Shown: piece by piece, positions 21,570 to 63,663 of the stretch
Numbering within the stretch: position 1 is the stretch's first letter
Layout of the letters: each line of letters opens with the position of its first letter
NCBI RefSeq assembly: GCF_900129905.1
Contig: NZ_FQXG01000003.1
Span: forward strand, 239,771-303,770
Length of the DNA stretch: 64,000 nucleotides
Source: Ferrimonas marina
GTDB taxonomy: Bacteria > Pseudomonadota > Gammaproteobacteria > Enterobacterales > Shewanellaceae
Reading direction: 5' to 3'
Notes under the pieces: generated by a model
What the model saw: the letters and a program-made list of their open reading frames with translations, nothing else
Databases searched by the model: none
What the model was told of the DNA's origin: nothing
Position numbers and translations under genes: made by a program

Positions 21570-23219
21570 TTAGCCATCGAAGGCCAGTGACAGCTGGGGT
21601 TGCCCGTTAAACGTTGCCAGCGTCCGGGCGATGGCGGCACCGATGGCACTGCCGATGTCCCGCCACATGGGTGGGCTGATGGCGTTGCCGACCAGTTCAC
21701 TGCCGGCACGGCTGTGCTTGCGGGGGCGGCGGGTTTTGCCATTGCTGTCACGGTTGCCGAGCGCTTCCCGTTCGATGGTGGCAATCACCTGGGCTTGATC
21801 GGCCTCGTCCCACCCCATAGCGCGGGCCCGCTCAAGCGGGGTGATCTGCCGATGGCCTTGTTCACCAACGATGACGCAGGTTTTGTACCCTCGCCAGTAT
21901 TGGGCGCCGATGCAGCCAATCCGGGTTTCGTCACCGGTGAGCTGTTTGACCTCAAAGCCATTGCCCTTGGCCAGCTGAGCTTCACCACGGGCAATCCCCT
22001 TGCTCATATCCGACCATGCGGAGTCCGGTACTGGCTGCAAGAGCGCGTTGAGTGGCACCTGATTGGCGGGTCGGGTCGGAATGACTTGCAGTTCCACCGA
22101 AATGGGTGGAAGCGTAAACAGCGCGGCCAGGCGCGGGCGCTGCTCCATTGCGCCGTGGTCGGACGCACAGCGCACCTCGTAGCTGAACTGGTAGCCCAAA
22201 CCCTGCATCCAGGTGATCAGCAGTTTCATCGAGAGGTCGTTAAGCGCGGCGTGCACGTTCTCTAGTACCACAAACAGGGGGCGGGACTGTGAAGCAAGGG
22301 CGTACAGACCCATAAACAGGCTGTTCTTTTCCACTTCGTCCATCGGCTTGGTGGCGGTGTTGGGAGTGGCCATCCGCTCGAGGCGTTCTAGCCGTTCTGT
22401 CACCTCCGCCAGCACGGTGGTGTCGTTGCGCTGCGCCAGGCGTGCCAATGCAAGCTTCAAGGCGGGGAGTTCTTCCCCCAGGGCCTGGCTGGCGCTGTCA
22501 TCCAGGGCTTTGTCCTGGCGGGCTTTGCTCATGCGCCGGCGCCGGTCTGCCTCTGCTAGGCTGCTGAGACTGGTGCAGGGCAAGCTGGCGACAATGCCGT
22601 CTGTCCTGGGTAGCGGCTGCGACAGCATCTGCTGCAGCGGCAGGTGATAGCAGATGGCATCCGGATTGTCCTGCCAAACCGGGGAGTGGGCCACCGCCAT
22701 GCTGCCGACGGCGGGGTCGGCCTCGCAGCTGTAGGCCAGCTGGGCCGGTACATGCTTACTTAGCCCGTCGATGATCGCGCGGGTCAGGATGTCACCGCCA
22801 CTGCAGATGCTGGCAATGGTAAGTTTTCCGCCACGCTTGAGTTTCTCGGCAAGGGCCTGCCATTGTTGGCGGTCCTGCAAGGCAGTGAGGCTGGTGAGGA
22901 TCTCAATCAGGCCTTCCCGCAGGACGAAGTACACCGACTCCGTGTGGCGATACAGGGAATGGATGGTCTTGTTGACGATATCGATGACACCGTGCTCTTT
23001 GCCGGCAATGGTGCGGCGGATAATGGAGTGTTTGCCGTCGGCATCGGGCACCAGGGTGGTCCGGGTAACGCCGGGGGTGAGACGGACTGGGGTGCCCACC
23101 GGGATGGCCCGGTTGATGGCGGCCCCTTCGTAGTAGAGCCGTCGCTGTTTACGCTTAAGGCCCAGGTTCACTTTGGCAATCCCGGTTAGGCGCTGCATCA
23201 ACTTGCTGGCGGTCTTCAT
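21570..23219 (-). CDS. Orphan DNA cytosine-C5 methyltransferase A
   Basis: Transfers a methyl group from S-adenosylmethionine to cytosine C5 in DNA. Motifs: SAM-binding SICSGGDIL (138-145), catalytic ASLPCTSLS with Cys215, ENV (320-322) and EQRPRL (about 358). C-terminal segment SELVGNAISPPMW resembles motif X. 549 aa; a long N-terminal extension (about 130 aa) precedes motif I, and an Arg/Lys-rich insert follows motif IV. The start ATG has GAGG upstream and follows the stop of the preceding gene by 1 bp. No restriction enzyme gene is adjacent, so it is probably for self-protection against host restriction or for regulation. Confidence 0.9.
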   Translation of the reverse strand: MKTASKLMQRLTGIAKVNLGLKRKQRRLYYEGAAINRAIPVGTPVRLTPGVTRTTLVPDADGKHSIIRRTIAGKEHGVIDIVNKTIHSLYRHTESVYFVLREGLIEILTSLTALQDRQQWQALAEKLKRGGKLTIASICSGGDILTRAIIDGLSKHVPAQLAYSCEADPAVGSMAVAHSPVWQDNPDAICYHLPLQQMLSQPLPRTDGIVASLPCTSLSSLAEADRRRRMSKARQDKALDDSASQALGEELPALKLALARLAQRNDTTVLAEVTERLERLERMATPNTATKPMDEVEKNSLFMGLYALASQSRPLFVVLENVHAALNDLSMKLLITWMQGLGYQFSYEVRCASDHGAMEQRPRLAALFTLPPISVELQVIPTRPANQVPLNALLQPVPDSAWSDMSKGIARGEAQLAKGNGFEVKQLTGDETRIGCIGAQYWRGYKTCVIVGEQGHRQITPLERARAMGWDEADQAQVIATIEREALGNRDSNGKTRRPRKHSRAGSELVGNAISPPMWRDIGSAIGAAIARTLATFNGQPQLSLAFDG

Positions 23220-23220
23220 A

Positions 23221-23511
23221 TCAGGCCTCGAGGCTATTAGAGGGCTGGTTTTTACGCCAGCGGGTGATGGCCTCAATCAGGCTGGGCCGCTCGGTCTCAA
23301 TCCCCAACGTGTTGTTGGCAATCCAGCCACCGTGGATGGTGATTTCGGCATCAGCATGCGCCTCGGTCGGCTCCCACGTGCTGGCTTGGGGTTCACCGTC
23401 GACGCTGACAGCCAGGTCATCAATCCAGACCTGATCACCGGTGAAGGTTTGCCATTGGCTGGGGTCTTGCCAGAAGCGCAGCAATTCCTGGCCGCTAAGA
23501 GTTAACTCCAT
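23221..23511 (-). CDS. Small protein upstream of methyltransferase A
   Basis: 96 residues, acidic, with two Trp-rich segments (FWQDPSQWQTFTGDQVWIDDL) and a basic C-terminal helix. Start ATG preceded by AAGGAGCGATCCCC. Its stop lies just before the methyltransferase start, so the two are tightly co-expressed. Function unknown; it could modulate the methyltransferase. Confidence 0.65.
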   Translation of the reverse strand: MELTLSGQELLRFWQDPSQWQTFTGDQVWIDDLAVSVDGEPQASTWEPTEAHADAEITIHGGWIANNTLGIETERPSLIEAITRWRKNQPSNSLEA

Positions 23512-30482: not shown

Positions 30483-31910
30483 TTAGGCAGCAATGCGGGC
30501 GTTGGGGCTGACCGCAATCTTCTTCAGTTGCAGTGCCAGATGGTAGTACCACGACTCGGAGATATGGCCGATGAGGCCGTTACCGAGGATCTGGGTGGCG
30601 CCGGTGAAGGGCACGTTGTCCACCAGAGCCGGATCGATCTCTTTGGCGCGGCACTGTTCAAACTGGTTGAATAGGCGGTAAGTGTCCGGCTCAGTCGGAT
30701 GGGCGTAAAGCGGATCGGAGCTGCCACCTTTGTGGTACTGGGCGCGCAGGGTGCTGAGCTTGGATTCCGGGCCACGGTAAATCTGCATGGCAAAGCTGTT
30801 GCCCTTGGCCGCATCGCGCTTCTCTTTTTCGAACAGGTAGGATTTGTTACCCCAGCTGCGGTGGTCAAGCGGCACATCATCAAGGATGTCGGCAACGTTC
30901 TGGGCTGGGGTCCACAGCGGGACGATGTCATTGAGATCCAGCACCTGCCCCAGACCGGCGGAGGTGAACATCACGTACATGCGTTCGCGACCTTCCAGCG
31001 AGAACCCTTCGGCATTAGCGTTGATGTCCCGGCGCTGCATGTTGTAGCCCATATGGCGCATCACCGCGCAGAACACATGGAACGAGGCTTCGTTGGCAAA
31101 TCCCCGGACGTTCTCCATCATGATGATGGCGGGGTTGGTCTGCTCCACGAAGCGCGTGTAGAAATACACAAGATGCGCAGTCTGCTCGCTTTCGCCTTTC
31201 AGGCCCTTCTTGGATTTGCCGGCAATGCTGGCGTCGGTGCAAGACGGGGTGATGGAGGCGTAGTCGAGTTTCAGCTCGCTGTCGAAGTTCAGCGCCGCCA
31301 AGTCGCCTTCAATCAGCATGGAGCGCTCATCGAACAGGTGCGGGCAGTTCTGGGCTAGGTTTTCCACGGCATTGGCATCGAAGTCGATGGCCACCCGGAT
31401 GACGGAGGCCAGACCGGCGCGCTTGAAGCCTTTGTCGCCGCAGAAGTCCTTAGTGCCACCACCGGCGAACACGGAGCCCTTCTCCAAGGGCAGGCCGTTT
31501 TGTAGCTTGTGCAGCAGGCGTTCCTCGCGCTCCTTTTGCTTCTGGGCAATGCCGTCCACATTGAGGCGGATGAGGATCCCTTTCTCGGAGTGGAAGATGC
31601 GGATGTTACTGCCCTCGGGCACATCCTTGAGGGTAGGGCAGCGCATTTCAGAGATTTCGATCAGCGGCACTAGGCCTCGCGCGGTCTTGCGTTTGGAGAC
31701 GGTGAACTCACCGGCATCGCAGGTAAAGTCGAGCAGGATCTCACCCTTGGCGGCGTTCTCGGTGATGGTGTAGGGCGCGCCCGGGCTGGTGACCAGACCC
31801 AGTCGATGGCCCTCCAACCAGACCCGGTTCTCAACCTTGGGCGGCAGGTCGGGATTGGCTTTGTTCCTGCGCTCAACAGTGTTGATGGGCTTCAATTGAA
31901 GTAGTTTCAT
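30483..31910 (-). CDS. Orphan DNA cytosine-C5 methyltransferase B
   Basis: Motifs: SVFAGGGTKDF (motif I, about 146-156), acceptor strand VAIDFDANAVENLA, catalytic ASITPSCTDAS with Cys224 (PSC instead of the usual PCQ), ENV (266-268) and QGRERMYVMF (motif VIII). About 120 residues without similarity to known domains precede motif I. It differs from methyltransferase A in length and motif detail, so probably has another target sequence. Start ATG with GGAG 8 bases upstream; a sigma70 promoter with operator site 4 precedes it. No cognate endonuclease nearby. Confidence 0.9.
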   Translation of the reverse strand: MKLLQLKPINTVERRNKANPDLPPKVENRVWLEGHRLGLVTSPGAPYTITENAAKGEILLDFTCDAGEFTVSKRKTARGLVPLIEISEMRCPTLKDVPEGSNIRIFHSEKGILIRLNVDGIAQKQKEREERLLHKLQNGLPLEKGSVFAGGGTKDFCGDKGFKRAGLASVIRVAIDFDANAVENLAQNCPHLFDERSMLIEGDLAALNFDSELKLDYASITPSCTDASIAGKSKKGLKGESEQTAHLVYFYTRFVEQTNPAIIMMENVRGFANEASFHVFCAVMRHMGYNMQRRDINANAEGFSLEGRERMYVMFTSAGLGQVLDLNDIVPLWTPAQNVADILDDVPLDHRSWGNKSYLFEKEKRDAAKGNSFAMQIYRGPESKLSTLRAQYHKGGSSDPLYAHPTEPDTYRLFNQFEQCRAKEIDPALVDNVPFTGATQILGNGLIGHISESWYYHLALQLKKIAVSPNARIAA

Positions 31911-31930
31911 CACCGTAACTCCGTTTGTCA

Positions 31931-40732: not shown

Positions 40733-41929
40733 ATGGATGCACTCGCCACCACCATCGAGCAGGGGTATGACACCTACTTGCCGCCGTCAGGCGTGGACTT
40801 AACGCTAGGCGCCTTTATGGCCCGTCAGGGTTTGTCTGAGCATCACGACATGATCATGCTGGAGGGCAGTATGAGCATGGCGGATCTGGTGGGAGGCTTC
40901 CCGGTAGAGCAAAACTCCGACGTCATTCCCGAGTACGACAAGATGCAGCGGGATGTGTCCAGCGGTGATGTGCGGACCCGGCGTCTGGACCGCTATCTGA
41001 ATGACCGAACTGACTGGCTGTTGCCTCAGCTGGTGATTTTTGTGACGCAGGGGCAATTGTCCCGTGCGGTGAAAATTGGTCCGAACTTGGCCCATAGCGT
41101 GACGTTGCCGGCTGATGCTGAGCGGGTGATCTGCGATGGGCAGGGACGCCGTGTGACTGTAGCCGGGGTGCTGGCGGAGCGAGCCGCCTTCGGTGCGTTC
41201 ACCATCCCGTTTAAGCTGATCATCACCAAGACCGCCCGGATCCGGGACGCCAAGCGAGTGATCTGCCAGGCCTTCGCTGATCTGAACGGCGAAGTCACCA
41301 AGCCCAACGCCAGCATCAATGGCCATTTCAATACGTCACGGCCGATGGACCGGTTGATGGATGAGCTGCTGGAAACTGAGATCGCCGATGGTAAGTGTTT
41401 GCAGGACATTACAGCCTTGAACGGGCTGATCAAGCCGGGGCAGTTGTGGACGTACAAGCAGGTTAAGGACATGGTGCTCAAGTCCAAAGGGACTACTGAG
41501 GGCAAGGCCAATGCCTTTTTGCGTGACGATGAACGGTACGCCGACTTCCTGGAGAACTGCCGGGTGTTCATCCGCCAGGTGTTCAAGGTGCTGCCGCTGG
41601 GGCAGTTGTCGGCCCAAGAGGAGCACAAGGCGGCCATCAAGGAGGCATTGTGGACCAAGTCTCTGTTCGCCTTGGCGCTGGCCTGGGTGGCGCGTTCGCT
41701 GACCGAGGATGCGCTGTTCTCCGGCAAGCTGGAGTGGGCGAAATTAGAGGGGCTGGCGAAGTTGCCGCTGCACACCCTGGATGACCCAATGTGGATTGAG
41801 GCTGGGATCAGCCTGGTCCGTGATGGGCGTGGGGATCGCCGTGTCACCATCAACAAGGGTACGGATGACGCCATCGCGCGCCTGTTGTGCCGCCATCTTC
41901 GGATCCAGCCGTCACAGGGGTTGTTCTAA
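40733..41929 (+). CDS. DndB-like DGQHR-domain protein
   Basis: 398 residues. DGQGR (135-139), in PADAERVICDGQGRRVTVAGVLAERA, corresponds to the DGQHR motif that names the DndB family; the strands before it (LVIFVTQGQLSRAVKIG) fit too. In Dnd systems DndB represses or modulates the modification operon, and related DGQHR proteins (DpdB) belong to 7-deazaguanine DNA-modification clusters. ATG preceded by GGGGGATTCGC. It is divergent from the DndC-like gene and under the same operator type. Whether it is a regulator or a subunit of a modification complex is open. Confidence 0.75.
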   Translation: MDALATTIEQGYDTYLPPSGVDLTLGAFMARQGLSEHHDMIMLEGSMSMADLVGGFPVEQNSDVIPEYDKMQRDVSSGDVRTRRLDRYLNDRTDWLLPQLVIFVTQGQLSRAVKIGPNLAHSVTLPADAERVICDGQGRRVTVAGVLAERAAFGAFTIPFKLIITKTARIRDAKRVICQAFADLNGEVTKPNASINGHFNTSRPMDRLMDELLETEIADGKCLQDITALNGLIKPGQLWTYKQVKDMVLKSKGTTEGKANAFLRDDERYADFLENCRVFIRQVFKVLPLGQLSAQEEHKAAIKEALWTKSLFALALAWVARSLTEDALFSGKLEWAKLEGLAKLPLHTLDDPMWIEAGISLVRDGRGDRRVTINKGTDDAIARLLCRHLRIQPSQGLF

Positions 41930-50498: not shown

Positions 50499-50903
50499 GT
50501 GTCTAACGAGAGAGTCCTGTCAGCATCTTCTGCCAAGTTTTGTCTGATGGCATGGCTGGCCAGTCACCCAGAACAGCAGGTCTTTCTGGTAAGGGATCTG
50601 CTGCAAAAGTCTGGGAGAAGGGGGCTTCGGCAGCAACTTGGCCAAGCAGAGTTATGTGGGGTGCTGCAGGCGGTCGGGAGCGGAGTCTTCGCGCGGGTCC
50701 GTCGTAACAGGATCAACGGCCAGGTAATGTATGAGCACCCTGGTGGAAGGGATGGCCTGTTGATTGAGGTGCTTGACTGCCTGGGCGTGCCTTGGCGCTA
50801 CGAGGGTCTAACGGCGGAATACCTGGAAGGTCGAAGTTCACAGGTGCCGGCGCAATGTGAGATCCGAGTGCTGGGTCCAATCCCCAGAAAGCTCTGGCTT
50901 TAA
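50499..50903 (+). CDS. Hypothetical protein (134 aa)
   Basis: GTG start with GAGGCGAAC upstream. HTH-like N-terminal half (LVRDLLQKSGRRGLRQQLGQAELCGVLQAVG) suggests a small DNA-binding or AbiEi-type N-domain, without a matching C-terminal partner. Single gene. Confidence 0.55.
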   Translation: MSNERVLSASSAKFCLMAWLASHPEQQVFLVRDLLQKSGRRGLRQQLGQAELCGVLQAVGSGVFARVRRNRINGQVMYEHPGGRDGLLIEVLDCLGVPWRYEGLTAEYLEGRSSQVPAQCEIRVLGPIPRKLWL

Positions 50904-52498: not shown

Positions 52499-52752
52499 AT
52501 TCGTAGCTCTCCGGGTGGGCCGGGCATTGGCTTAGCCAAGGGGCTGTCACCGGCGCCAGCAATGTTCATACGTCAACGTGGCCAACGTTATCATTGGCTT
52601 GGGGGTGGTGCCAGCGGGATAGGCGTGAAATTTGAGCCTACGTTGCTGATGTGGTTGTGAGTAGGGGCGATCGTTTGGGTGGCAAAAGATCCTTGATGCC
52701 CGCCGGCAAAGATCGGATCATGCCGGTGACACCATTTTCCTGACTGAGTCCA

Positions 52753-53247
52753 ATGCGCACCACTCAAACCACCAGTCTTTACCTGCCTAACGGCCGCGGC
52801 ATCAACGAAGGCCCAGTGATCGCCTTTGTAGCGAAAGAGGCGGTAGCTGCTTGCGGTTCCAAGCTGGCGGCGGCGGAGAAGCTCGGGATCACTCGTCCCA
52901 CTCTGGATAAGCTGTTGCGCAATGAGTTAAGTGTCACCACTCGGACCCTGGCCGGTTTTGAGGCGGTTCTGCCCTGGGCCCGGTTTGGCGTATTCACCAA
53001 AGCGGATGCGGATCCCTTGCTGGTTAGGCTAACCAAAGAGGCGGAGCATTCTATCGAGCGGTTCATCGGGATGCACCGTGCAGCGCTCAATATGGGTGTG
53101 AATGAGTACGCCCGCACTGTCAATGTGAGCTCCGCCACCATAGTACGTACCGAAGGGCCGGTGGAGTGCTATTACAAGATCGCCCTGGTCTATGACATCT
53201 GCCGCGCCGTCCCTGGTTTGCGGTATGGGATCTTGCCGGCTTACTGA
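52753..53247 (+). CDS. HTH protein upstream of the type IV-A CRISPR operon
   Basis: 164 residues with two HTH-like motifs: AACGSKLAAAEKLGITRPTLDKLLRN (residues about 34-60) and GVNEYARTVNVSSATIVRTEG (about 115-135). A probable transcription factor. It is separated from csf1 by 225 bp that contain a sigma70-type promoter, so it may regulate the csf operon; direct evidence is lacking. No strong SD. Confidence 0.65.
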   Translation: MRTTQTTSLYLPNGRGINEGPVIAFVAKEAVAACGSKLAAAEKLGITRPTLDKLLRNELSVTTRTLAGFEAVLPWARFGVFTKADADPLLVRLTKEAEHSIERFIGMHRAALNMGVNEYARTVNVSSATIVRTEGPVECYYKIALVYDICRAVPGLRYGILPAY

Positions 53248-53412
53248 AAGTCTATCCTTTGGTCAGTTGGCTGGTTTTTCTGTCTGCTTCTTTGCCACTC
53301 GATGGGAGGGGCTGGCACCTTACTGGCACACGTATTTCTTTCAAATTCCTTCATTGAGCGAAATGAGATAGCTCACTTTCTCAACCAGTTAAATTAATGA
53401 CTGTAAAATCCG

Positions 53413-53441
53413 TTGACTAGCGGCACACGCCTGTGTGTAAA
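53413..53441 (+). promoter_or_regulatory. Candidate promoter of the csf operon
   Basis: TTGACT (53413-53418), 17 bp, TGTAAA (53436-53441); an overlapping TAAAAT gives 19-bp spacing. GGCACACG and CCTGTGTG around 53421-53437 form an imperfect inverted repeat and a possible operator. Confidence 0.5.
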
Positions 53442-53471
53442 ATGTATTAAACAGTATATTTGAAGCGCAAT

Positions 53472-54326
53472 ATGAAAGCTTGTTCACCGGTTTCTGAATT
53501 CGGGCCCATTAATGACCTGCCGGGACGCTACGATGTGGCGGATGCCCGGGCGGCTATGCTGCCCATTGATTACTTCTTCCTGTGGTTGGGACAGTCGCTG
53601 ATCACCCAGCAGTCTCTGCGAGAAGTGCCGTCAGATGCCTGCTGTGACAGTTGCTGCCGTCCGGCCTCAGCCTGGCCGTTCGGGCCGTATGCCTATCTGG
53701 GGGACGGCTATTCGAAATCCTCCGTGTATTGCATGTCCTGCTCGTCGTTGATCACCGGTCGTGGCGATCGTAACGGCTGGTTTAACAAGGCCGGCACCCG
53801 TAGTTGGGACCTCACCAATATGGACAAGGCCACTCTGGTGGTGTCCGCATCTGGGCATCAGTTGTTCGCCAGCGCCAATGTCGTGGGCAAGCTGGATCTG
53901 GTGCAACGACCTGTGCTGGTGAACTACAAAGCGGCCACCTTCAAAGAGCGCATCCGTTGGATTTCTGAGAACTGCGGCGATGAGCCGTACCTGGTGATGA
54001 CCTTTTCGGTACGCAAGGACATTGCGCTGAACCTCAAAGTGTCGGAAGGGGATGAGTTGTACTGGACTGATGCGGTGGATATGAAGCGTTTCCATTTGCC
54101 CTCTGTTAAGCGCTTCTTCGAGCTTAAGTTGGACCAGCCTGACCTGCCTTGGACCGAGATCGAAGCCCAGTTAAAGCGTTTTTACCGTGGCCGGATTGCG
54201 CCTGGCGATTTGGAGTTTGGCCGGTGGCTAAGAGAGCTGAGCTGTGAATCATTAACTGCGTGGATGCAGGGGTTGCCGTCCGATCCCTGGTTGCGCCTGG
54301 ACACAATCCTATTGGTGAGTGAGTAG
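53472..54326 (+). CDS. csf1: Csf1, large-subunit-like zinc protein of type IV-A CRISPR
   Basis: Csf1 is the reduced Cas8-like subunit at the base of the type IV effector complex. The zinc finger is visible: C58-x2-C61 and C87-x2-C90 (ACCDSC ... VYCMSC), as in known Csf1. 284 residues. Starts at ATG 53472 (a TTG upstream is possible). The stop TAG is immediately followed by the ATG of csf5, so they are translationally linked. First gene of the five-gene operon. Confidence 0.85.
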   Translation: MKACSPVSEFGPINDLPGRYDVADARAAMLPIDYFFLWLGQSLITQQSLREVPSDACCDSCCRPASAWPFGPYAYLGDGYSKSSVYCMSCSSLITGRGDRNGWFNKAGTRSWDLTNMDKATLVVSASGHQLFASANVVGKLDLVQRPVLVNYKAATFKERIRWISENCGDEPYLVMTFSVRKDIALNLKVSEGDELYWTDAVDMKRFHLPSVKRFFELKLDQPDLPWTEIEAQLKRFYRGRIAPGDLEFGRWLRELSCESLTAWMQGLPSDPWLRLDTILLVSE

Positions 54327-54893
54327 ATGAACTGTTACGAAGGCATTATGACGCTCGATGGCGATCTATCCGCCGGCGGCGAGAAAGAGCATTACCTCGG
54401 GAAGTTGCACCGGTTTATGTGCAAAAAACTGGGTAAGGGCCATGTAGGGGATCAGCGCCAGTATCTGTACTACCGATGGCCCGGCCAGGACTACGTGTTT
54501 GTCCGCAGCGCAGTCGCGATGCCTGAGATGGGGATCGTCGATGAGGTTTCGGTAGAGATGTCTGAGGGCCAGGAGTTGTTTGTGAAGGTGCCCGTACGCG
54601 CCATTCGGCGAAGCGGAGAGCGCCGCAAAGTGCTTGTGGTGCCGGAATCAGAGATGGAAATCCATGGCACAGAATTACTGGAGCGTAACGGCTTTGCGGT
54701 TCTGCTATGCGCGACCAGTAAAGATCTCTGTGGTGTCTTAGATCGAGAATCGAGAAAAGAGGCGTTTAATTACTACGAGCTGTCAGCGCGAGTTCGGGTG
54801 GTTGACGCTGAGAAGGCGGCACACGCCTATTGCTCGGGGTTAGGCCGGGGTAAGGCCTTCGGCATGGGGCTAATGCTATGTCAGCCAGTGTAA
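54327..54893 (+). CDS. csf5: Csf5/Cas6-type crRNA-processing endonuclease
   Basis: 188 residues. The C-terminus has the Gly-rich loop of Cas6 family RNA endonucleases (YCSGLGRGKAFGMGLM, 171-186), and the rest fits a ferredoxin-like fold. It should bind the CCCGCC/GGCGGG hairpin of the repeat and cut at its 3' foot, leaving an 8-nt 5' handle. Position between csf1 and dinG supports the assignment. Overlaps the next gene by 16 bp. Confidence 0.85.
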   Translation: MNCYEGIMTLDGDLSAGGEKEHYLGKLHRFMCKKLGKGHVGDQRQYLYYRWPGQDYVFVRSAVAMPEMGIVDEVSVEMSEGQELFVKVPVRAIRRSGERRKVLVVPESEMEIHGTELLERNGFAVLLCATSKDLCGVLDRESRKEAFNYYELSARVRVVDAEKAAHAYCSGLGRGKAFGMGLMLCQPV

Positions 54894-56983
54894 TGACCTT
54901 CCGTGAGGAGTTGGGCCAGATCTTCGGGCCCGGTGGCTGGTTGGAGACCGAGTACGGCTTTAGCTCGAACGCTCACCAGATGGCCTATGCCAAGGCGGTA
55001 CTGTCGGCACTGGATTCTGGCGATGCTGAAAAACCCCTGAACATGCTGGAGGCAGAAACCGGAACCGGTAAAACGCTGGCCTACCTGTTCGCTATGGCAC
55101 TGGTGGCGTCCTCTGGTAAGCGTGGGGTGATCTCCACCTACACCTTGTCGTTGCAGGAGCAGATCCTGTATCAGGAATGGCCGAAGGTTGAGCGTTACCT
55201 CAATCAAACGGGTCGCGCTGTCAGCATTGGCCGACTGATCTCCCGATTGAACTACGTCTCACCGGCTCGGGTGGCGGATGCCCTGGAGGACCTGTTTGGC
55301 AGTATTGCTGCTGCCGACGCGCCATACCATGAACTGCTGGACTGGGCGGCGTCCTCCGCGGCGGGTGCCGGCACTGGCTTGATCAGCGAATACGTGGATA
55401 AGTACGGCAATCTGCCGGACGGGATCAGTAACGACAGCATCTGCGTGCCTCAGCACCGCGAGCCCGATAACGACATGTATGGGCGGGACCGGGCTGACTC
55501 TGAATCCCACGACATCTTGCTGATCTCCCATGCAATGCTTCATAGCTCATCCTTCTCGTGGAGCCAGGAGGAACCAGCCAGTCCACTGGCCCGACTCCGT
55601 CCGGATCTGATGCTGTTCGATGAGGCCGATCAGTTGGCAACCGTGTGTGAGAGCACGGTAGAGAGTCATATCCGTCCCGCGACCATGCGGGCTAAACTGC
55701 GCCGCATTACGAGACAGATGCCACACCTGGGCGTCCAGTCGGATCTGATCCAAAGCCAAATCGAGACGATTGAGACCATTCTCAACGGCCGATATCAGGG
55801 CGAGGGTTCCCGTGCGGTGTTGCTGGAGATGAGCCCTGATGAGCAGTTATTCAAGCCATTGGCAGAGCATACCCTGCAGGTCTCTACGCTGCTGAAGCGC
55901 ATTGGCAAGAGCCGTAAAGCAGACAGGGTCAGTGAAGAGGTGATGGCGCTGAACCAATATGCGTCGATGCTGCGAGATTTCGGTGAGCAGAGCACCATGC
56001 GGGCAACTGGGATCTGCTGGTCACCAGTGCGCCATCGACCCTCCCTGTTTACCCATGAACCGTCCCGTGCGGCATCATTAAGCCGCGTGATTCGGTCCTA
56101 CACGAAGCGGCAGGCGACCCCACCCCGGGTGGTGTTGACCTCAGCGACCTTGTCCGACGTGCTGCGCCCTGTAAAAGGGTCGGCCACTGCCAAGGACTTT
56201 CAGTCATTGCTCGCCAGGCTCTGGCTTCGCACCGATGAAGTGGGCCAGGCCGCCCGGTTTTCACCGCTGAAGTTCGGATCGGTAAACGGAATTTTTCTGC
56301 CCGACATGAATGCCCCCAGGCCCTTTTTGAAAGAGATGGGCGGTGCACTAAATCCCGAATGGCCAGTGCATTGTGCCGAAACAATTCGGCAGCACCAAGA
56401 GCATGGGCCGATGTTGGCGTTGACCACCAGTTACGCCGAGCAGGAAGCCATCATGGCCCAGTTTGAGCCAGACGCGCTCCTGGGGCGTCGGGATGAGCCG
56501 TTGTCATTGCAGGTGGCGAAGTTTCGTCGGGACGGTGGTGTGCTTATCTCCCCGGCGCTGTGGGAAGGGTACAACCTTCGTCGCGAGGACGGCACTCAGT
56601 TGATTGCCACAATTCTGATCACCCGCTTTCCTTTTTCGCCCAGCTCAGACATCGCCGCTTTGGCGCAAAACCGTATAGCCCGGTTGCAGGGGCGGGCGGT
56701 ATCGACATCCACAGAGTACGCCATAAACGCGGAACGGGGCGCCAAGAAGATGCGGCAGGGGTTTGGCCGGGGTATTCGTCACCCGCTGGACTGCATCCGG
56801 TTGGTGATCTGCGATCCGCGCTTCCCGCAAGCCAAAAGCGGCCGTTCTGTTGGCCCATTCAAGGCGTGGTACCGGGTGATCCCCGCGCGGTTTCTTGGTC
56901 AGTGGGAGACCGCACAAATTGGTTCGGCAAGTAGTCAGGAACCTGAGCAGCCAGGAGGAACGCCGCTGTGGCAAACCCTATAG
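54878..56983 (+). CDS. csf4: Csf4/DinG-type ATP-dependent helicase
   Basis: Signature helicase of type IV-A: needed for plasmid interference in characterised systems, unwinding DNA 5' to 3'. Walker A AETGTGKT (59-67), DEAD box LMLFDEAD (245-251), and C-terminal motifs (WEGYNL, GRGIRHPLDCIRLVICDPRF). 701 residues, normal length. I see no obvious four-Cys Fe-S cluster, as in Csf4 rather than true DinG. Start could also be the ATG at 54893, which overlaps the csf5 stop as TAATG. Overlaps csf3 by 16 bp. Confidence 0.9.
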   Translation: MSASVMTFREELGQIFGPGGWLETEYGFSSNAHQMAYAKAVLSALDSGDAEKPLNMLEAETGTGKTLAYLFAMALVASSGKRGVISTYTLSLQEQILYQEWPKVERYLNQTGRAVSIGRLISRLNYVSPARVADALEDLFGSIAAADAPYHELLDWAASSAAGAGTGLISEYVDKYGNLPDGISNDSICVPQHREPDNDMYGRDRADSESHDILLISHAMLHSSSFSWSQEEPASPLARLRPDLMLFDEADQLATVCESTVESHIRPATMRAKLRRITRQMPHLGVQSDLIQSQIETIETILNGRYQGEGSRAVLLEMSPDEQLFKPLAEHTLQVSTLLKRIGKSRKADRVSEEVMALNQYASMLRDFGEQSTMRATGICWSPVRHRPSLFTHEPSRAASLSRVIRSYTKRQATPPRVVLTSATLSDVLRPVKGSATAKDFQSLLARLWLRTDEVGQAARFSPLKFGSVNGIFLPDMNAPRPFLKEMGGALNPEWPVHCAETIRQHQEHGPMLALTTSYAEQEAIMAQFEPDALLGRRDEPLSLQVAKFRRDGGVLISPALWEGYNLRREDGTQLIATILITRFPFSPSSDIAALAQNRIARLQGRAVSTSTEYAINAERGAKKMRQGFGRGIRHPLDCIRLVICDPRFPQAKSGRSVGPFKAWYRVIPARFLGQWETAQIGSASSQEPEQPGGTPLWQTL

Positions 56984-57699
56984 AACACACGCCTTTTCGA
57001 CTGAGAGTGGGTCTGCGCACCGGTATGGCAGCGCTTAAGCACCCATTGCACCTGGATGGGCTGCTGGAATACCTAGCCTATGGCGACACCGGTTGCAGGG
57101 ACGCAGCTCGGCAATCTGTGGGCCAAATGTTGAGTCATCGCGATGGGATCTATCAATGTTCGGCGCTGGCCTTTGGTGTGACGGGCGAGCAGGGCCTCGG
57201 CCCTGCTGAGACCTATCGCGTTCGGGCGCTGCGCCAGGGTGAATTAACCAGTAAGAAGATCAAGCCGACTGGCCGCCGGGGCAAATACGCAAAGGTGCAG
57301 GTCGCTGGTGGGGCGGCAAAGCGGATTTTCGAGCCGGTTCGGCTGGTGGAGGCGCCCTTTGTGGTGTTTGACGCCCTGGGTGATGCGACTCGGGTTGTCG
57401 ACCTGATCGAGGCCTTCTGTTTGTTCCTGGGGCCAGACCGTGAGTTGGGCCTGGGCGAGGTCGGCGAAGTACGAGTTTTGGCCTTGCCCGAGGGTATTGA
57501 TCGACCGGGTTGGGTTGATGAGCAGGGCAGGTTGGCAAGAACGCTGCCGCGACCGGTGTATGAGCGGCAATTTGGTGGTGTAGGCCAGATCATGGCTGGA
57601 GTCAGTGTGCACCAGGGTCGCTTTGCTGCGCCGTACCACGAACAAACAGGCCGGTGTGAGGTTGTCTCGCCGGACCGCTACCGCAAGATTTTCTTTTAA
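56968..57699 (+). CDS. csf3: Csf3, Cas5-like subunit
   Basis: 243 residues; N-terminal FRLRVGLRTGMAALKHPLHLDGLLEYLAYG matches Csf3 openings, and the middle holds Gly-rich loop YAKVQVAGGAAKRIFE. Cas5-like proteins cap the 5' handle of the crRNA. GTG start preceded by AGGAGG, overlapping csf4. It is followed 20 bp later by csf2. Confidence 0.8.
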   Translation: MANPIEHTPFRLRVGLRTGMAALKHPLHLDGLLEYLAYGDTGCRDAARQSVGQMLSHRDGIYQCSALAFGVTGEQGLGPAETYRVRALRQGELTSKKIKPTGRRGKYAKVQVAGGAAKRIFEPVRLVEAPFVVFDALGDATRVVDLIEAFCLFLGPDRELGLGEVGEVRVLALPEGIDRPGWVDEQGRLARTLPRPVYERQFGGVGQIMAGVSVHQGRFAAPYHEQTGRCEVVSPDRYRKIFF

Positions 57700-57719
57700 T
57701 ACGTTAGGAGTGCGTAACG

Positions 57720-58811
57720 ATGGAGACAAAATCGTATCTTTGTCATGTGAAGCTGGAGTGTGTTGGTCCCTTAGCACTCACCCGCAAAATCGAGGGTTGG
57801 GGCAAAACGGAGGCCGAGCGGGAGATCCAGCGTCTTCCCAGTTTTGGCGGGGGGGACCGTTACTACCCTGGGCCCACATTGGGAGGGCTTCTTCGTAATA
57901 AGGCAGTGGACGCCGTGCAGCGCCAAATGGCAGAAGAGGAGTTCGACAAGTTCGCACAGATCGAGGCTGCAGAGGCGCAAATGCTGCGAGAGGGGGTGGA
58001 CATTACCGGCAAGGTAGCCAAAGAGAATCTCGATGGTGAATTTGACGCTCTGGAGGAGTTACGCGCTGCCAATCCGGTACTGGGTTTGTTTGGTCGCTGG
58101 CGGATGGGCAAGCTCATAAGCTTTGGTAACCTGCATCCTTTGGAGAACGGTGCGCACTTTGTTGAGCAGGGTGGTTTTCGCACTGACCGGTTCAAGCTTG
58201 AACCTCAAAAGCACAAGACACTGACTCAGACGGGTGTTGCGGATCTAAAAGAGTTGATGATGCAAGACGGTCTCCAGGCGCTGGACAGCAAGGAGGTCAA
58301 AGCTGAGATTAAGAAAGTGCAGTCTGAACTGAAGACCGCATCGGCGGCTGAGAAGCCGGCGATGTTCTCCCGCATTAATGAACTGGAGCAGAAACTAAAG
58401 GACATGAAAAAGAAGCAGCGCTTTCCGACAGAGTCGATTGCCCGGCCTTTGCCTGGCTATGAAGCCTTCAAGCCAGGTGCGCTGCTGGAGTCGCGGATAA
58501 GGCTGTTCCAGGTTACGGACTTGGAGCTGGGGATCTTCCTGGCGGCGTTGCGTGAGTTCTCAGAAACCGCCCAGTTGGGGCCGCGGTTCGGTGGCGGTTG
58601 TGGTGAGGTGAAAATGCAGTTGGCCGTTGAGTCTCGCAGCCAGGGTGTCACTCAATCGCTGGGTGACGTGCATGTCGGGTTGTGGGAGTTTGGTATTGAC
58701 GGCGAGCGTGCCAAGCCACTGCACGATGCCCTCAGCCTCTTCGATAAGAGCTTTGCTAATTGCGCCAAGGACTCTGACATTGACCTGACCCGATACCTGG
58801 CTAAACCCTAA
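57720..58811 (+). CDS. csf2: Csf2, Cas7-like backbone subunit
   Basis: 363 residues; Cas7-like, forms the helical backbone along the crRNA guide. Features: SFGGGDRYYPGPTLGGLLRNKAVDAV near the N-terminus, a coiled-coil-like charged insert (about 195-235), and FGGGCGEVKMQLAVESRS near the C-terminus. Start ATG after AGGAGTGCGTAACG. The CRISPR array begins 56 bp after its stop with no gene between, so it may be transcribed from the csf operon as well as from its leader. Confidence 0.8.
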   Translation: METKSYLCHVKLECVGPLALTRKIEGWGKTEAEREIQRLPSFGGGDRYYPGPTLGGLLRNKAVDAVQRQMAEEEFDKFAQIEAAEAQMLREGVDITGKVAKENLDGEFDALEELRAANPVLGLFGRWRMGKLISFGNLHPLENGAHFVEQGGFRTDRFKLEPQKHKTLTQTGVADLKELMMQDGLQALDSKEVKAEIKKVQSELKTASAAEKPAMFSRINELEQKLKDMKKKQRFPTESIARPLPGYEAFKPGALLESRIRLFQVTDLELGIFLAALREFSETAQLGPRFGGGCGEVKMQLAVESRSQGVTQSLGDVHVGLWEFGIDGERAKPLHDALSLFDKSFANCAKDSDIDLTRYLAKP

Positions 58812-58867
58812 TGCTGGGAAGAGGCCAGATATTGGGTTTCCAGACTGTTCTTTAACAAGATATTGGT

Positions 58868-59805
58868 GTCAGGCCCGCCCAGGCGGGGGTGTTTCTGACA
58901 GATAGCGACAAGATGTTTTTGGTCCGGCGTCAGGCCCGCCCAGGCGGGGGTGTTTCCCATATAGCTGTGCAAAGCACTGATTCAAGCCTGTCAGGCCCGC
59001 CCAGGCGGGGGTGTTTCTGGTTGCCAAGCACAAAGCAGAAAGCGCTTGACGTCAGGCCCGCTCCGGCGGGGGTGTTTCTAACAGAACATCCTTGACTCTG
59101 CATGAGGGAGAGTCAGGCCCGCCCAGGCGGGGGTGTTTCCAGCGCCAAGGCGAGTGCGGAAGCGGCCCTCAGGCCCGCCTAGGCGGGTGTGTTTCCAATC
59201 TAGTACTGAGTATCTTCTGTTTCACCATGTCTGGCCCGCCCAGGCGGGGGTGTTTCCAGCTCTTGGTAAACCAGTTGCTCGAATTGCTCGTCAGGCCCGC
59301 CCAGGCGGGAGTGTTTCCATTCGGATCTCGGAAGAAAAGCCGGTCGGTTGGTCAGGCCCGCCCAGGCGGGGGTGTTTCCGGTCTGTCGACGTACAAGAGC
59401 TCCACCAGGTCATCAGGCCCGCCTAGGCGGGGGTGGTTCAAGGTATTTCGCGACGTCCGCCCATTTGAGCTGGTCTGTCTCGCCTCGGCGGGGGTGTTCC
59501 CTACTCAATCATCAAGGAGTCGTGATGAAGATAGTCGGGCCCGCCCAGGCGGGGGTGTTTCCTCCAGATGGAGATCGCTCATGACATGCAATTTGTCAGG
59601 CTCGCTTAGGCGGGGGTGTTTCCTTGCCCTAAATCGAACTGAAGTAAGCCAAGGGGTCAGGCCCACCTCGGCGGGGGTGTTTCTACCAGCACCGAATCCA
59701 TTCAGCTTCTTGATTGGTCAGGCCCGCTTCGGCGGGGGTGTCCCTAGCGCTCTTTTGTCTCGTTTTTGAGACTCAGTGTCGTACCTGCATGGGCGGGGTT
59801 GGTCC
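58868..59805 (+). CRISPR. Type IV-A CRISPR array, 16 repeats and 15 spacers
   Basis: 28-bp repeats with 33-bp spacers (61-bp period), except spacer 5 (59140-59167), which is 28 bp. The repeat is partly palindromic: 6 bp, then CCCGCC, a 2-nt loop, GGCGGG, then the 8-nt tail GGTGTTTC, which should become the crRNA 5' handle. Repeats 1-5, 7-9 and 12-14 are near-identical. Repeats 4, 11 and 13-15 differ mostly inside the loop or stem. Repeat 16 (59778-59805) is degenerate, and a relic lies at 59836-59863. Degeneration at the right end and the csf genes at the left put the leader at 58812-58867. No cas1 or cas2 nearby. Confidence 0.95.
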
Positions 59806-59865
59806 AGATTAGGACAATGGGCAGTTAGGTCTTAGGCAAAGCCTGCATGAGCGGGGGTGTAAGTC

Positions 59866-59882
59866 GGCCCGGTAACCGGGCC
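59866..59882. terminator. Hairpin closing the CRISPR array
   Basis: GGCCCG/CGGGCC stem around GTAAC, right after the relic repeat and just before the end of the minus-strand HNH gene. No T-run. Confidence 0.5.
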
Positions 59883-59894
59883 AGGCTTTACGTG

Positions 59895-60686
59895 CTAGGT
59901 GATTGGGCTACACAGCCTTCGGGCTTGTAGGGAGTGAGCAATGACGGCCTTGTCAGCGGCGAAGTGCGCTTTCATGTGACAGGTAGGGCATAGGGCTACG
60001 ACGTTGGATAGGTGGTCGGGTCCGCCTTCGCTGAGCGGGATGATGTGGTGGGATTCCAGGTAGATGCAATTGTTCTCCATCCGAAATCCTTTGGTGCCAC
60101 AGCATTCACAAAAGCCCTGGGCCCTCTCTAGCGCAGCTGTCCTAACCTTGGGGTCCCGGTGGTAACCATCGTTACGTGTCCCGCGGGTGATCCGGGCATC
60201 GGATACCTCTGTGGCGTCGAACTGATCGACAAAGCGTTGCGTGCCGCGCTTGATGGTGACATCGCCGGTGGAGTCATCGTAGTGGCTAACGAACCAGGAC
60301 TCCGGGTCAAGAAGGCGTTTGTGGTTGCCGGAGGGCCCATCGATGATGATCGCTCGGCAGCTAAGGTTTTCTTCAAAGGCGCGCTTGAGGAGGGTGTCTC
60401 GCTGGGCTGCCCGGGTGGGCCAGTTGGCTGTCGAGTGGATCCAGTCCGCGCGGTAGTTGTTGCTGTAAAAGATGGTGCCGTCCTTGTGGCGAATGTTCTT
60501 GTGCCAGACTGTCATGATAATCAGGCCATCCTGTTCCCAGGCCCATCGGTAGCAGTACCTTGGGTTGGCGGCAGGAACGGTTGGGCGCTCGTAATCATTC
60601 CAGTCGCTGACATCGTGGCCGGCTTCGGCAACCAGGCTGTAAGCGGTCTGGTACTTTGTGGGTTTCAGTTGCTGCAGCGGGTCCAT
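59895..60686 (-). CDS. HNH endonuclease-domain protein
   Basis: 263 residues with a C-terminal HNH domain (about 183-260): CECCGTKGF zinc ligands, ESHHIIPLSEGG with the catalytic His pair, NVVALCPTCHMKAH. The N-terminal 170 residues are not recognised but resemble restriction-type specificity regions (Trp and Lys rich). McrA-like methyl-dependent nuclease or defence nuclease is plausible. It stands between the CRISPR array and the nuclease-helicase gene, both on mobile defence-type ground. Confidence 0.8.
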   Translation of the reverse strand: MDPLQQLKPTKYQTAYSLVAEAGHDVSDWNDYERPTVPAANPRYCYRWAWEQDGLIIMTVWHKNIRHKDGTIFYSNNYRADWIHSTANWPTRAAQRDTLLKRAFEENLSCRAIIIDGPSGNHKRLLDPESWFVSHYDDSTGDVTIKRGTQRFVDQFDATEVSDARITRGTRNDGYHRDPKVRTAALERAQGFCECCGTKGFRMENNCIYLESHHIIPLSEGGPDHLSNVVALCPTCHMKAHFAADKAVIAHSLQARRLCSPIT

Positions 60687-60831
60687 GGCAGTACGTCCGT
60701 GTCAAAGCGTCATGCGTCATGGTTCCATACAGCGGGCGTTGCTGCCAGTGCTGGTGTCTCAATTCACGGGAAAGTTGGGTTGACCCGGTAGCGAGGCGGT
60801 GTGCTGTCTAGCCGGTTTTTCTGTGGGCTGT

Positions 60832-63663
60832 TTAGCGCCGTGGGCGAACTCCATCCAGCATGCCGGTGGGTGCGATCCTTTGTTCAATTGACCTCCCAAG
60901 ACGGCCATTTTCATAAGACATGCGCCAATGTCTGATTCGTGCACAAAGCTGGTATCCACAAGCTGTGTAGAAGTTCCCCGGTGGCACGGTTCTGTCAGGG
61001 AATACCTCGCGGTATTCGGTGTAAAGCTGAATTAGCTCACTGATAGTTCTGGGCCTGCTTTTTAAAATGCCGTAATGGGCGAGGGCGCGCCTGACCTCTG
61101 GGGAGAGGAGGTTTTTCCGGTCGCTATAACGCCAGAACGCGAGGTATACGCCCACTGGCCATCCCTCGTCATCTACCGCTTCGTAGCGGATGAAGGGGGT
61201 GCTTGCCTGTTGTAGATAGCGGTGAGTTCGCTCTACGTTTTGGAGTTCACGTTGAGTAAAGGCCTCGAAGTTGAAGCCGTAATCAGAGGCTGCCTGGCGG
61301 CCGTTGTGGGATAGCTCATTCCTGTGGTGGAGTTGATTGATCAGCCAGCAAGCCATACCGACAGGCGCGCCTTTGTGGATGACGGTGGGGTTGTCCGGGG
61401 GGCCGTATTTAGCGATGTAGTCCTTGATTTCAACGCCATACCTTTCGATATCAATCCCTTCCCTGTTCCACTGCATGTCAATGAGATCAAGAAGCCGGCA
61501 ACGCTCAGATGACAGAGTTCCCTCACTACGCCGGGAGCGTTGCTTGTCGAGCCAATGCGATAAGTCCTTGTTGTACTTGTGCAAGGCGCCAAGCAGTACC
61601 AGGTGGCCATGGATTTGATGGAAGTCACGGGCGACCTGATAGTTCCTTTGCCAGATGTCGTCCTCTACCGACCAGCAGAAGTCGATGTTGTGTAGGGCTT
61701 TCAACTGCTTTGGGTCAAGTTCGGTGGCGAGACGGTTCTGTCTGTACAGGAGACGCAATTGAGTGCACCACATGCCGAGTGGGTAACCGCGATACTCCTC
61801 GTCGTTATCCGGGCGTTTAGATCCACTCTCTTTCTGGAAGTCGCGAAGTAAGCCCAGCATTCGCCAGAAATCCGCTTTCTGCGCCTGTTTTTTGGTGGCG
61901 GCGATGAGGTCTTTCACTGGCTGGATAAGGTTTACGGAGCGTATCTGTACTGGCTCTGGGTCGGCCTGCATGCCCAGTTCTGCACGCAGGCTTTCGTGCT
62001 CATCTACGGCTTGCTGGATTTTGCCAAGCGGTACCGACTCGCTGAGGTTGTCCAGGTTGTTAACCAGATCAAGTACCAGGGGGGTGGAGTCGGTAGAGCT
62101 GCAGCTGAGGCATCGCCCGAGCTGCTGTAGTGCCTTGCTGGGGCTGGATGTGCAGCGGAGCATGATCACCCCGGAAAGGTCGGGCAGGTGGACGCTCTCA
62201 GAGAGCATGTCGACAGAGAGAAGCAGGTGCAGGCCGGTATCGGGCTTGGCGTCGAGGAAAGCCCGTCGCTGCTGTCTGCGGGTGGCTGTATCGAGTCCAG
62301 AGTGGATTTCCTGGATTTGGCAAAGGGTGCGCGTGCTGGGCTTGAGTTGCGACGCTTTGTGGTACCACATGTGCAATTGCCCCCGCAACTGCACCAGGTG
62401 GTCGATGGTTTCGCAGAACACGATGAATTTGCCGGTGAGATTGGGGATATGATCGGCAAAAACCTGCTCAACACCGGCGCTGCGCTGCCAGTCGAGTTTG
62501 GCAGAGTGCAGCCGGCCCTTTAGCGTGCGCAGTTCGCGTGCCGTCTCGCTGGGTAGGTCGGGGACTTCGTCGGGATTGGGCAGCTGTTGTTCCAACTGCT
62601 CAAGTTGCTTGGCGGTGTCGTCAAAGTCATAGAGCCCGGCAATGATGGTGGGTGCAGGCAGGATCTTTCGGGCGATGGCCTGGTCCAGGGGCAGTAGGTG
62701 TACGGGGTGGATCCTAAGTTCGGCCATCATGTTTCGCATGCCGTCCAGGTGCCGGACTGGATCGGCACAGAGGGAAACCACCTTGGCGCTGGGGTTCAGG
62801 TTCAGCAGTTGGCTGAGGCCACTCTCGGTCACGGGAGCGCCGGTGTGGGGCAGCTCATCAAGGATAACGAGTTCGTAGGTGTCAGCGAGAAGCCGGTTAA
62901 GCTTGGCCTCTTCACGCAGGCGGCAATAGGTCCAGTGGGTGGTATTGGGGTGTCTGCAGCGGGCCTCCTGCTGCACCCGGCCTTCCGTAGAGGGGCACAA
63001 AAACAGCACCGGCCCTGTGAACCGTTCACAAAGAGGTTGGATAATGTGGTTCTTGCCGGTGCCAGTAGCGGCCTCCAGGCCAACCCGCTGGTGGTGCACA
63101 AGGCCTAATTTAGTCCGTCCAAGGGCGGTGAGATTGTGGGGCAGAAGGTTAAGGGCAGCCGGTACCTGTGTGCTGGCGGGGTTGTAGCCGGACATCATAT
63201 CTCTAAGCTGCTTGGGGCCTACCAGGGCAAGCTTGAACGATTCAAAGCGTTCTGCAGCGCCTTTGACAAAGCCCCTGAGGGAGACAAGGCGGAAGTGCTT
63301 GCAGTGGTGGGTGGGCGCGGCTTCTCGTTCTAAGATTTCGTACTCGGACGCTATCTGCCTCAGGCCGAGTGGTTTGGCGTGCGCCTTGCACTGGACGATG
63401 ACAGCCACGCGGTCGGGGTGTTCCCTGTCGTAAAGCAGCAGATCGGCGCCGCCATCCGGACCTGGGCTGGTTAGACGTACCAGGTAGCCAAGTCCGCGGT
63501 ACAGTTCGGCAATGAACCTTTCAGCCACCAGCCCCTTCAAGTGCGGAGCGGGCTGAGCCTCGAGCCAGTGGAAAGCAAGATCGATGCACTTACTGTCAAG
63601 GGTGCAGGCGTGGAGGTGCTGGCGGATCTGATCATCAATCAGCTGAAGGTTGGGTGCATCCAT
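60832..63663 (-). CDS. Mrr-type nuclease fused to SF2 helicase with helicase-associated repeats
   Basis: 943 residues. N-terminal PD-(D/E)XK domain of Mrr type (GPDGGADLLLYD ... VAVIVQCKAHA, about 60-105). SF2 helicase follows with Walker A ATGTGKNHI (about 205), DELP box, and motif VI QQLGRCLS (about 500). The C-terminal 350 residues are repeated helicase-associated-like modules (FWRMLGLLRDFQKESGSKRP, QLRLLYRQNRLATEL). Such nuclease-helicase fusions are often phage or plasmid defence proteins (e.g. type III-like or Type I-like restriction helicases). Exact family unknown. Single gene, no adjacent methylase. Confidence 0.8.
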   Translation of the reverse strand: MDAPNLQLIDDQIRQHLHACTLDSKCIDLAFHWLEAQPAPHLKGLVAERFIAELYRGLGYLVRLTSPGPDGGADLLLYDREHPDRVAVIVQCKAHAKPLGLRQIASEYEILEREAAPTHHCKHFRLVSLRGFVKGAAERFESFKLALVGPKQLRDMMSGYNPASTQVPAALNLLPHNLTALGRTKLGLVHHQRVGLEAATGTGKNHIIQPLCERFTGPVLFLCPSTEGRVQQEARCRHPNTTHWTYCRLREEAKLNRLLADTYELVILDELPHTGAPVTESGLSQLLNLNPSAKVVSLCADPVRHLDGMRNMMAELRIHPVHLLPLDQAIARKILPAPTIIAGLYDFDDTAKQLEQLEQQLPNPDEVPDLPSETARELRTLKGRLHSAKLDWQRSAGVEQVFADHIPNLTGKFIVFCETIDHLVQLRGQLHMWYHKASQLKPSTRTLCQIQEIHSGLDTATRRQQRRAFLDAKPDTGLHLLLSVDMLSESVHLPDLSGVIMLRCTSSPSKALQQLGRCLSCSSTDSTPLVLDLVNNLDNLSESVPLGKIQQAVDEHESLRAELGMQADPEPVQIRSVNLIQPVKDLIAATKKQAQKADFWRMLGLLRDFQKESGSKRPDNDEEYRGYPLGMWCTQLRLLYRQNRLATELDPKQLKALHNIDFCWSVEDDIWQRNYQVARDFHQIHGHLVLLGALHKYNKDLSHWLDKQRSRRSEGTLSSERCRLLDLIDMQWNREGIDIERYGVEIKDYIAKYGPPDNPTVIHKGAPVGMACWLINQLHHRNELSHNGRQAASDYGFNFEAFTQRELQNVERTHRYLQQASTPFIRYEAVDDEGWPVGVYLAFWRYSDRKNLLSPEVRRALAHYGILKSRPRTISELIQLYTEYREVFPDRTVPPGNFYTACGYQLCARIRHWRMSYENGRLGRSIEQRIAPTGMLDGVRPRR

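Follow-up and report, generated by a model that had tools for sequence, protein, structure and literature searches.

The stretch of DNA analysed here (64,000 nucleotides; hereafter, the window) corresponds to positions 239771–303770 of contig C10 (576,248 bases) in a Ferrimonas marina genome of 4.98 Mb distributed over 18 contigs. On its plus strand, five csf genes are arranged in the order csf1, cas6e-like csf5, dinG/csf4, csf3 and csf2, from position 53460 or 53472, depending on the start considered, to position 58811. The Cas8-like csf1 gene (53460–54326, +; PADLOC Csf1_2_IVA3, 1.1e-6) has three candidate starts (TTG at 53460, ATG at 53472 and ATG at 53556), its product ranging from 256 to 288 aa accordingly. 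It is followed by csf5 (54327–54893, +; 188 aa), coding for a predicted Cas6e-like pre-crRNA endoribonuclease (PADLOC Cas6_0_IVA3, 6.4e-13; Pfam PF08798, 1e-7); by csf4 (54878–56983, +; 701 aa), for the CasDinG helicase (PADLOC Csf4_0_IVA, 6.2e-120 vs. 5.8e-18 for Csf4_1_IVA1); by the Cas5-like csf3 (56968–57699, +; 243 aa, GTG start; PADLOC Csf3_0_IV, 2.9e-31; phmmer 8rc2_F, 1.6e-11); and by csf2 (57720–58811, +; 363 aa), whose product is the Cas7-like backbone protein (PADLOC Csf2_0_IV, 3.2e-36, and Csf2_1_IVA3, 2.3e-35; phmmer 8rc2_A, 5.4e-33). Downstream, a 56-bp segment (58812–58867, +), presumed to be the leader from its position and length, precedes a CRISPR array (58868–59863, +) of 17 repeats and 16 spacers with the consensus repeat GTCAGGCCCGCCCAGGCGGGGGTGTTTC, in which a 5-bp stem encloses a 4-nt loop. 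The tight packing noticed in the preliminary description was confirmed: csf5 abuts csf1, csf4 overlaps csf5 by 16 bp, csf3 overlaps csf4 by 16 bp, the gap between csf3 and csf2 is 20 bp, and the first repeat (58868) starts 56 bp past csf2.

All five proteins matched type IV PADLOC profiles, rather than falling into unrelated families, and the array was in place, which upholds the earlier identification of a type IV-A locus. The parts listed for type IV-A in the accessible text of PMC8175902 (csf1, csf2, csf3, Cas6/Csf5, dinG and a CRISPR array) were thus all present, csf1 being the weakest, and the Csf2 matches given above place this protein in the type IV Cas7 family. Furthermore, profiles built from five relatives, with the window protein omitted, were run against 528 ORFs of the contig and recovered csf2 (1.8e-62), csf4 (1e-92), csf3 (4.2e-28), csf1 (5.4e-10) and csf5 (1.2e-10). 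The csf2, csf3 and csf4 models of NCBIfam also matched, with scores under their curated cut-offs, as would fit a distant relative. With regard to conserved residues, cysteines C62, C65, C91 and C94 of Csf1, in a zinc-finger-like arrangement, were invariant among the six Csf1 proteins compared, H28 and the glycines of the C-terminal loop of Csf5 were invariant in six of six proteins, and the GTGKT, DEAD, SATL and QGFGRGIR motifs were in place in DinG. Pfam matched helicase domains alone in Csf4 and revealed no fused nuclease domain. Csf1 is the weakest of the five gene calls: neither Pfam nor NCBIfam gave a match, and its predicted model (pLDDT 65, from five sequences) had no PDB match at E ≤ 0.001, a low-confidence fold which would speak neither for nor against Cas8. 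A promoter scan of positions 52700–60900 showed no sigma-70-like site. The locus is real and, judged by its sequence, intact, with all five ORFs open.

Only 5 of the 17 repeats, each of 28 nt, were identical to the consensus, and the deviation of the other 12 increased with the distance from csf2: the first three equalled the consensus, while the last two differed from it at 10 and 11 of 28 positions. Such a proportion of divergent repeats suggests an array that seldom gains spacers. The spacers themselves were mostly of 33 nt (14 of 16), with one of 28 nt and one of 30 nt. Changes were unevenly distributed within the repeat, with none of 85 positions affected in the 3′ arm of the stem, 5 of 85 in the 5′ arm (5 of 170 for the whole stem) and 20 of 68 in the loop (Fisher p 2e-8, the repeats not being independent). 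In the 65 stem cells, 98.5% paired, and four of the five stem changes were G-U wobbles. No covariation was found in the stem, whose pairing measures were reached by 500 of 500 shuffles, and the folding energy of the consensus was not clearly better than that of shuffled sequences (z −0.7). As regards resemblance to the IV-A3/I-E type of repeat, the hairpin and a AGGCGGGGGTG core are common to the window repeat and to that of an Alteromonas locus (GTATTCCCCGCGTAGGCGGGGGTGAACCG); the core has the same orientation in both, in support of an array that is read in the same direction as the genes. Both ends of the two repeats differ, the 3′ end, i.e., the future 5′ handle, being GGTGTTTC in the window and GTGAACCG in Alteromonas. 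Published crRNA handles comprise 7 nt in IV-A3 and 8 nt in IV-A1 (PMC11519345, in the portion of text available). The differing handle makes Cas6e–repeat co-evolution testable.

The order of the genes, which the preliminary description could not place, was compared among 20 sources (the window and 19 related loci, some of them ending at locus boundaries). The complete order csf1-csf5-csf4-csf3-csf2 was present in 10 of the 19 (L011–L015, L044, L045, L046, L048 and L065), with other genes sitting between csf4 and csf3 in L014. Since Klebsiella plasmids are among these loci, with the order seen on pINF319.4 and proteins that match IV-A3 models (L015), this order, csf1-cas6e-dinG-csf3-csf2, is that of IV-A3. 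The type IV-A3 systems of Klebsiella IncHI1B/IncFIB plasmids resemble the window locus in gene content and order, in the Cas6e-type processing enzyme and CasDinG, in a short leader after csf2 (65 bp in the accessible part of PMC7434947, 56 bp presumed here), in the 61-bp repeat-spacer period, in the lack of Cas1 at the locus and in the plasmid-like carrier. They differ in host and replicon, in their GTATTCCCCCCGTGTGCGGGGGTTATCGG-like repeat and in protein identity to the window, which was just 17–29% across the five proteins; the Klebsiella set scored far higher on the same models, which makes the window system a remote relative. The same gene order was found in loci of Shewanella, Alteromonas, a Gammaproteobacteria MAG (L044) and genome G205, with Csf2 identities to the window of 31% (Shewanella), 27% (Alteromonas) and 31% (L044). 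Type IV-A1, by contrast, has in common with the window the csf1–csf5 parts list and the DinG principle, but its DinG model scored far below Csf4_0_IVA on the window protein, and the order published for a Thioalkalivibrio IV-A locus, csf4-csf5-csf1-csf2-csf3 (PMC7434947, available text), is a different one. Similarly, an IV-A2-like locus on a Pseudomonas paraeruginosa AR441 plasmid (L079) carries homologues of Csf2, Csf3 and DinG, but it lacks csf1, has a Cas6f-type enzyme and an annotated cas1f, and follows the order csf2-cas6f-dinG-csf3. The absence of Cas8/Csf1, by which IV-A2 is defined in the text seen of PMC11519345, does not apply to the window, where csf1 is present.

Among CRISPR proteins in the PDB, phmmer matched Csf2, Csf3 and DinG only to entries 8rc2 and 8s35–8s37, deposited by the authors of PMC11519345, whose available text gives a IV-A3 stoichiometry of 1:1:6:1; the 24 Csf2 chains in these four entries, six in each, fit that count. 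In the Csf2 and DinG trees, in which long branches were flagged by the program, the window was placed deep and without support, and the nearest rows along the tree path included L044 and the Shewanella and Alteromonas-type loci. A single branch separated the IV-A3-order rows from all others in 17% (DinG) and 0% (Csf2) of 200 bootstrap trees, the deep forks being unsupported. The second trees omitted L047, L050, L066, L070 and L071 (short, duplicate or distant), included L049 for Csf2 only and kept one of the near-copies L014 and L015. As for the labels, which are not published ones, L082 was called IV-A1 from its match to PADLOC Csf4_1_IVA1 (1.5e-156), and L079, L080, L083 and L084, of other layouts, were grouped as IV-A2-like, where a weak csf1 match in L084 (2.7e-6) speaks against all four being devoid of csf1. 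Comparison with described subtypes therefore settled the gene order, as that of IV-A3, and left the tree position deep and unsupported. Given this and the large distance (identity of about 30% along most of the Csf2 and DinG sequences), "IV-A3-like", or IV-A with IV-A3 layout, is a safer designation than "IV-A3".

The distribution of Csf2 was surveyed in counts that may omit entries from the window's own genome or from one very close to it. Matches were obtained in 465 of 72,556 plasmid records, all below 60% identity and at most 33% among the 40 matches listed, in 3 others of 394 genomes of the order and in 4 others of 369 genomes of the class, while the other 96 of 97 relatives gave none. 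A scan of genome contigs returned seven loci at 29–32% identity, and a scan of IMG/VR gave no match. The gene layout is already known, and the sequence is unusually divergent for type IV-A.

A plasmid-like carrier had been proposed from the window, and contig C10 bore this out, with an RctB-like initiator and conjugation-type genes. Pfam searches on ten chosen C10 proteins identified an RctB-type initiator domain (PF11826, 2.8e-16; C10:121514–123625, +), a TraG/TraD C-terminal domain (3.6e-7), a T2SSE secretion ATPase (6.6e-75) and a TrbI-like protein (2.6e-6, under the curated cut-off), together with a DNA polymerase III alpha subunit, a bacterial topoisomerase, FlhA and ribonucleotide reductase; aragorn detected five tRNAs on the contig. 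An 8-kb stretch located 32 kb upstream of the window was not matched by any of the 13 other genomes of its genus. The initiator, the conjugation-type genes and this unmatched stretch suggest a megaplasmid or chromid that is conjugative and measures 576 kb or more; C10 is probably a megaplasmid, although it may be integrated into a chromosome. The sequence range of systems with a IV-A3 layout is thereby widened to a large replicon whose initiator is RctB-like, and the layout persists although Csf2 identity is only about 30%. At C10:201068–203109 (L026:1068–3109), a 20-bp repeat similar to AACTCTGTTTATCGATCCGT was noticed in about 20 irregularly spaced copies; by their look they are iteron- or centromere-like, and not a CRISPR array.

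The same contig carries a second, solitary Cas6e-like gene (C10:444517–445101, +; L035:747–1331; 194 aa; PADLOC Cas6, 3.7e-20, and Cas6e, 3e-18), 150 kb from the csf5 gene of the locus and with neither csf genes nor an array seen nearby. On the leave-out Csf5 profile, it scored above the Csf5 protein of the operon (1.1e-13 vs. 1.2e-10). A literature search for solitary Cas6 with CRISPR and plasmid returned nothing, and wider wording led to PMC12596717, available to us in part.

The preliminary description had also pointed to missing adaptation genes, and for Cas1 this holds: the genome gave no PF01867 match in a search whose controls were positive in 9 of 14 cases, 65,412 of the 576,248 contig bases being N. 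Cas1 was matched in 25 of 146 genomes of the family. Around Cas1 in four of these, arrays were present in three, with repeats that differ from those of the window and that we take, by their look, to be I-C- and I-F-like; none was found in the stretch fetched from the fourth. When the repeat core was searched in 394 genomes of the order (≤1 mismatch over 19 specified bases), only two copies appeared outside the window's genome, both of them single hairpins at contig starts and not arrays. The one IMG/VR match to the core was likewise rejected as a donor array, as it is not an array. According to PMC11519345, in the part accessible and citing Benz et al. 2024, IV-A3 systems are supplied with spacers in trans by Cas1-Cas2 of the host. 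As its genome gave no Cas1 match, the locus is well suited to the question of how type IV arrays on plasmids obtain their spacers.

We also searched for the targets of the spacers, as the preliminary description had proposed. With the whole array as query, blastn returned 6 of 72,556 plasmid records (best E 0.9) and 14 of 50,697 phage records (best E 0.3), with no convincing protospacer in either collection. In the 152 genomes of the family, 77, the own genome included, had a match at E ≤ 1, again with no convincing protospacer; the best non-self match (E 0.007) spans spacer and repeat, and, as at most three candidates were scored per genome, weak protospacers may have been missed. Exact 21–22-mers of 6 of the 16 spacers were not found in IMG/VR. 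With respect to the AAG-PAM plasmid targeting of IV-A3, no convincing protospacer was available from the plasmids, phages, 152 family genomes and, for those six spacers, IMG/VR. A Klebsiella IV-A3 control array run by blastn against the plasmids gave 33–34-nt matches with E down to 2e-7, including one of 33 nt and 97% inside a TraE/TraK gene. The method works, but the control was a favourable one, since sampling of Klebsiella plasmids is much denser (602 of the 666 records matched) and its query is shorter. The proposed search yielded clear matches for the control and no convincing protospacer for the window.

Taken together, these data are very probably explained by a divergent IV-A CRISPR-Cas system, apparently intact and with the IV-A3 layout, carried on a probable megaplasmid. 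In relatives, Csf1, Csf2, Csf3 and Csf5 form a crRNA-guided complex on DNA bearing a PAM, to which CasDinG is then recruited, and the target is suppressed without a nuclease (PMC11519345 and PMC12669027, accessible parts). While the gene content and order, the conserved motifs, the hairpin repeats and the absent Cas1 match are seen in the sequence, the biochemistry and targets of the window system are inferred from these relatives. The array would be transcribed in the direction of the operon, and Csf5 would cut each repeat 3′ of the hairpin, leaving crRNAs with a 5′ handle of approximately GGUGUUUC, on which Csf3, several Csf2 subunits, Csf1 and Csf5 would assemble. With the PAM read by Csf1 and Csf3, the crRNA would form an R-loop on matching DNA, and CasDinG would be recruited and, with ATP, suppress the target without cutting it. 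New spacers would come from the Cas1-Cas2 proteins of another CRISPR system in some host, and the likely benefit would be that the carrier replicon is protected from rival plasmids or phages.

An alternative that we regard as possible but doubtful, and that is partly compatible with the above, is a decaying system that is no longer adaptive, in which the genes are intact and the array is a fossil without new spacers, either retained because a few old guides are still useful or simply not yet lost. The 12 divergent repeats, most altered at the distal end, the spacers of 28 and 30 nt, the lack of a Cas1 match in the genome and the lack of a convincing protospacer in the collections searched all point in this direction, whereas the open ORFs with conserved motifs, the stem kept while the loop drifts, and the first three repeats identical to the consensus, as in arrays once growing at that end, argue against it. 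Rather unlikely is the reading of the locus as a separate IV-A lineage, sampled here for the first time, that would be a sister of IV-A3 and not a member, having a crRNA handle and a cognate Cas6e of its own, on a conjugative megaplasmid also carrying the second, solitary Cas6e; the latter enzyme may then process guides from a different array or be in competition with a type I-E system of the host.

The idea that certain crRNAs are directed at host or replicon genes, silencing these and not rivals, draws on the natural chromosomal target of the Pseudomonas oleovorans IV-A1 system (PMC11551745, available text) and on the lack of a foreign target for the window spacers; we consider it very improbable, as every spacer had at least 8 mismatches to any site in the 511 kb of the contig that could be read and the array had only two weak matches outside itself in its own genome (E 0.19 and 0.66; 3 of 28 candidates scored). 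The least probable proposal, to which we give hardly any credence, concerns an HNH endonuclease-like gene (59895–60686, −; PF01844, 4.3e-11) whose end lies about 30 bp from that of the array. Since DNA is cleaved by IV-A2 variants in which CasDinG carries a fused HNH domain (PMC12669027, accessible part), this clear HNH domain and CasDinG could form a split version of such a fusion, so that targets would be cut. However, the gene runs towards the array on the opposite strand, PADLOC matches it best to methyl-directed restriction enzymes, and tblastn (E 1e-3) revealed no relative in the 19 other loci, five of them shorter than 7 kb. Moreover, it adjoins a gene for an Mrr-nuclease/helicase protein (60832–63663, −), as in a restriction cluster. 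The HNH and Mrr-type pair, with no relative in the 19 other loci, several of them short, was rejected as CRISPR partners and is likely a restriction-type cluster.

Other genes of the window include a DndB-like (40733–41929, +), an AbiEi-like (50499–50903, +) and a HipA-like gene (696–2270, −), which are predicted to be of defence and toxin-antitoxin type and are scattered over the window. In addition, two proteins with C-5 cytosine methylase domains are encoded at 21570–23276 (−) and 30483–31913 (−).
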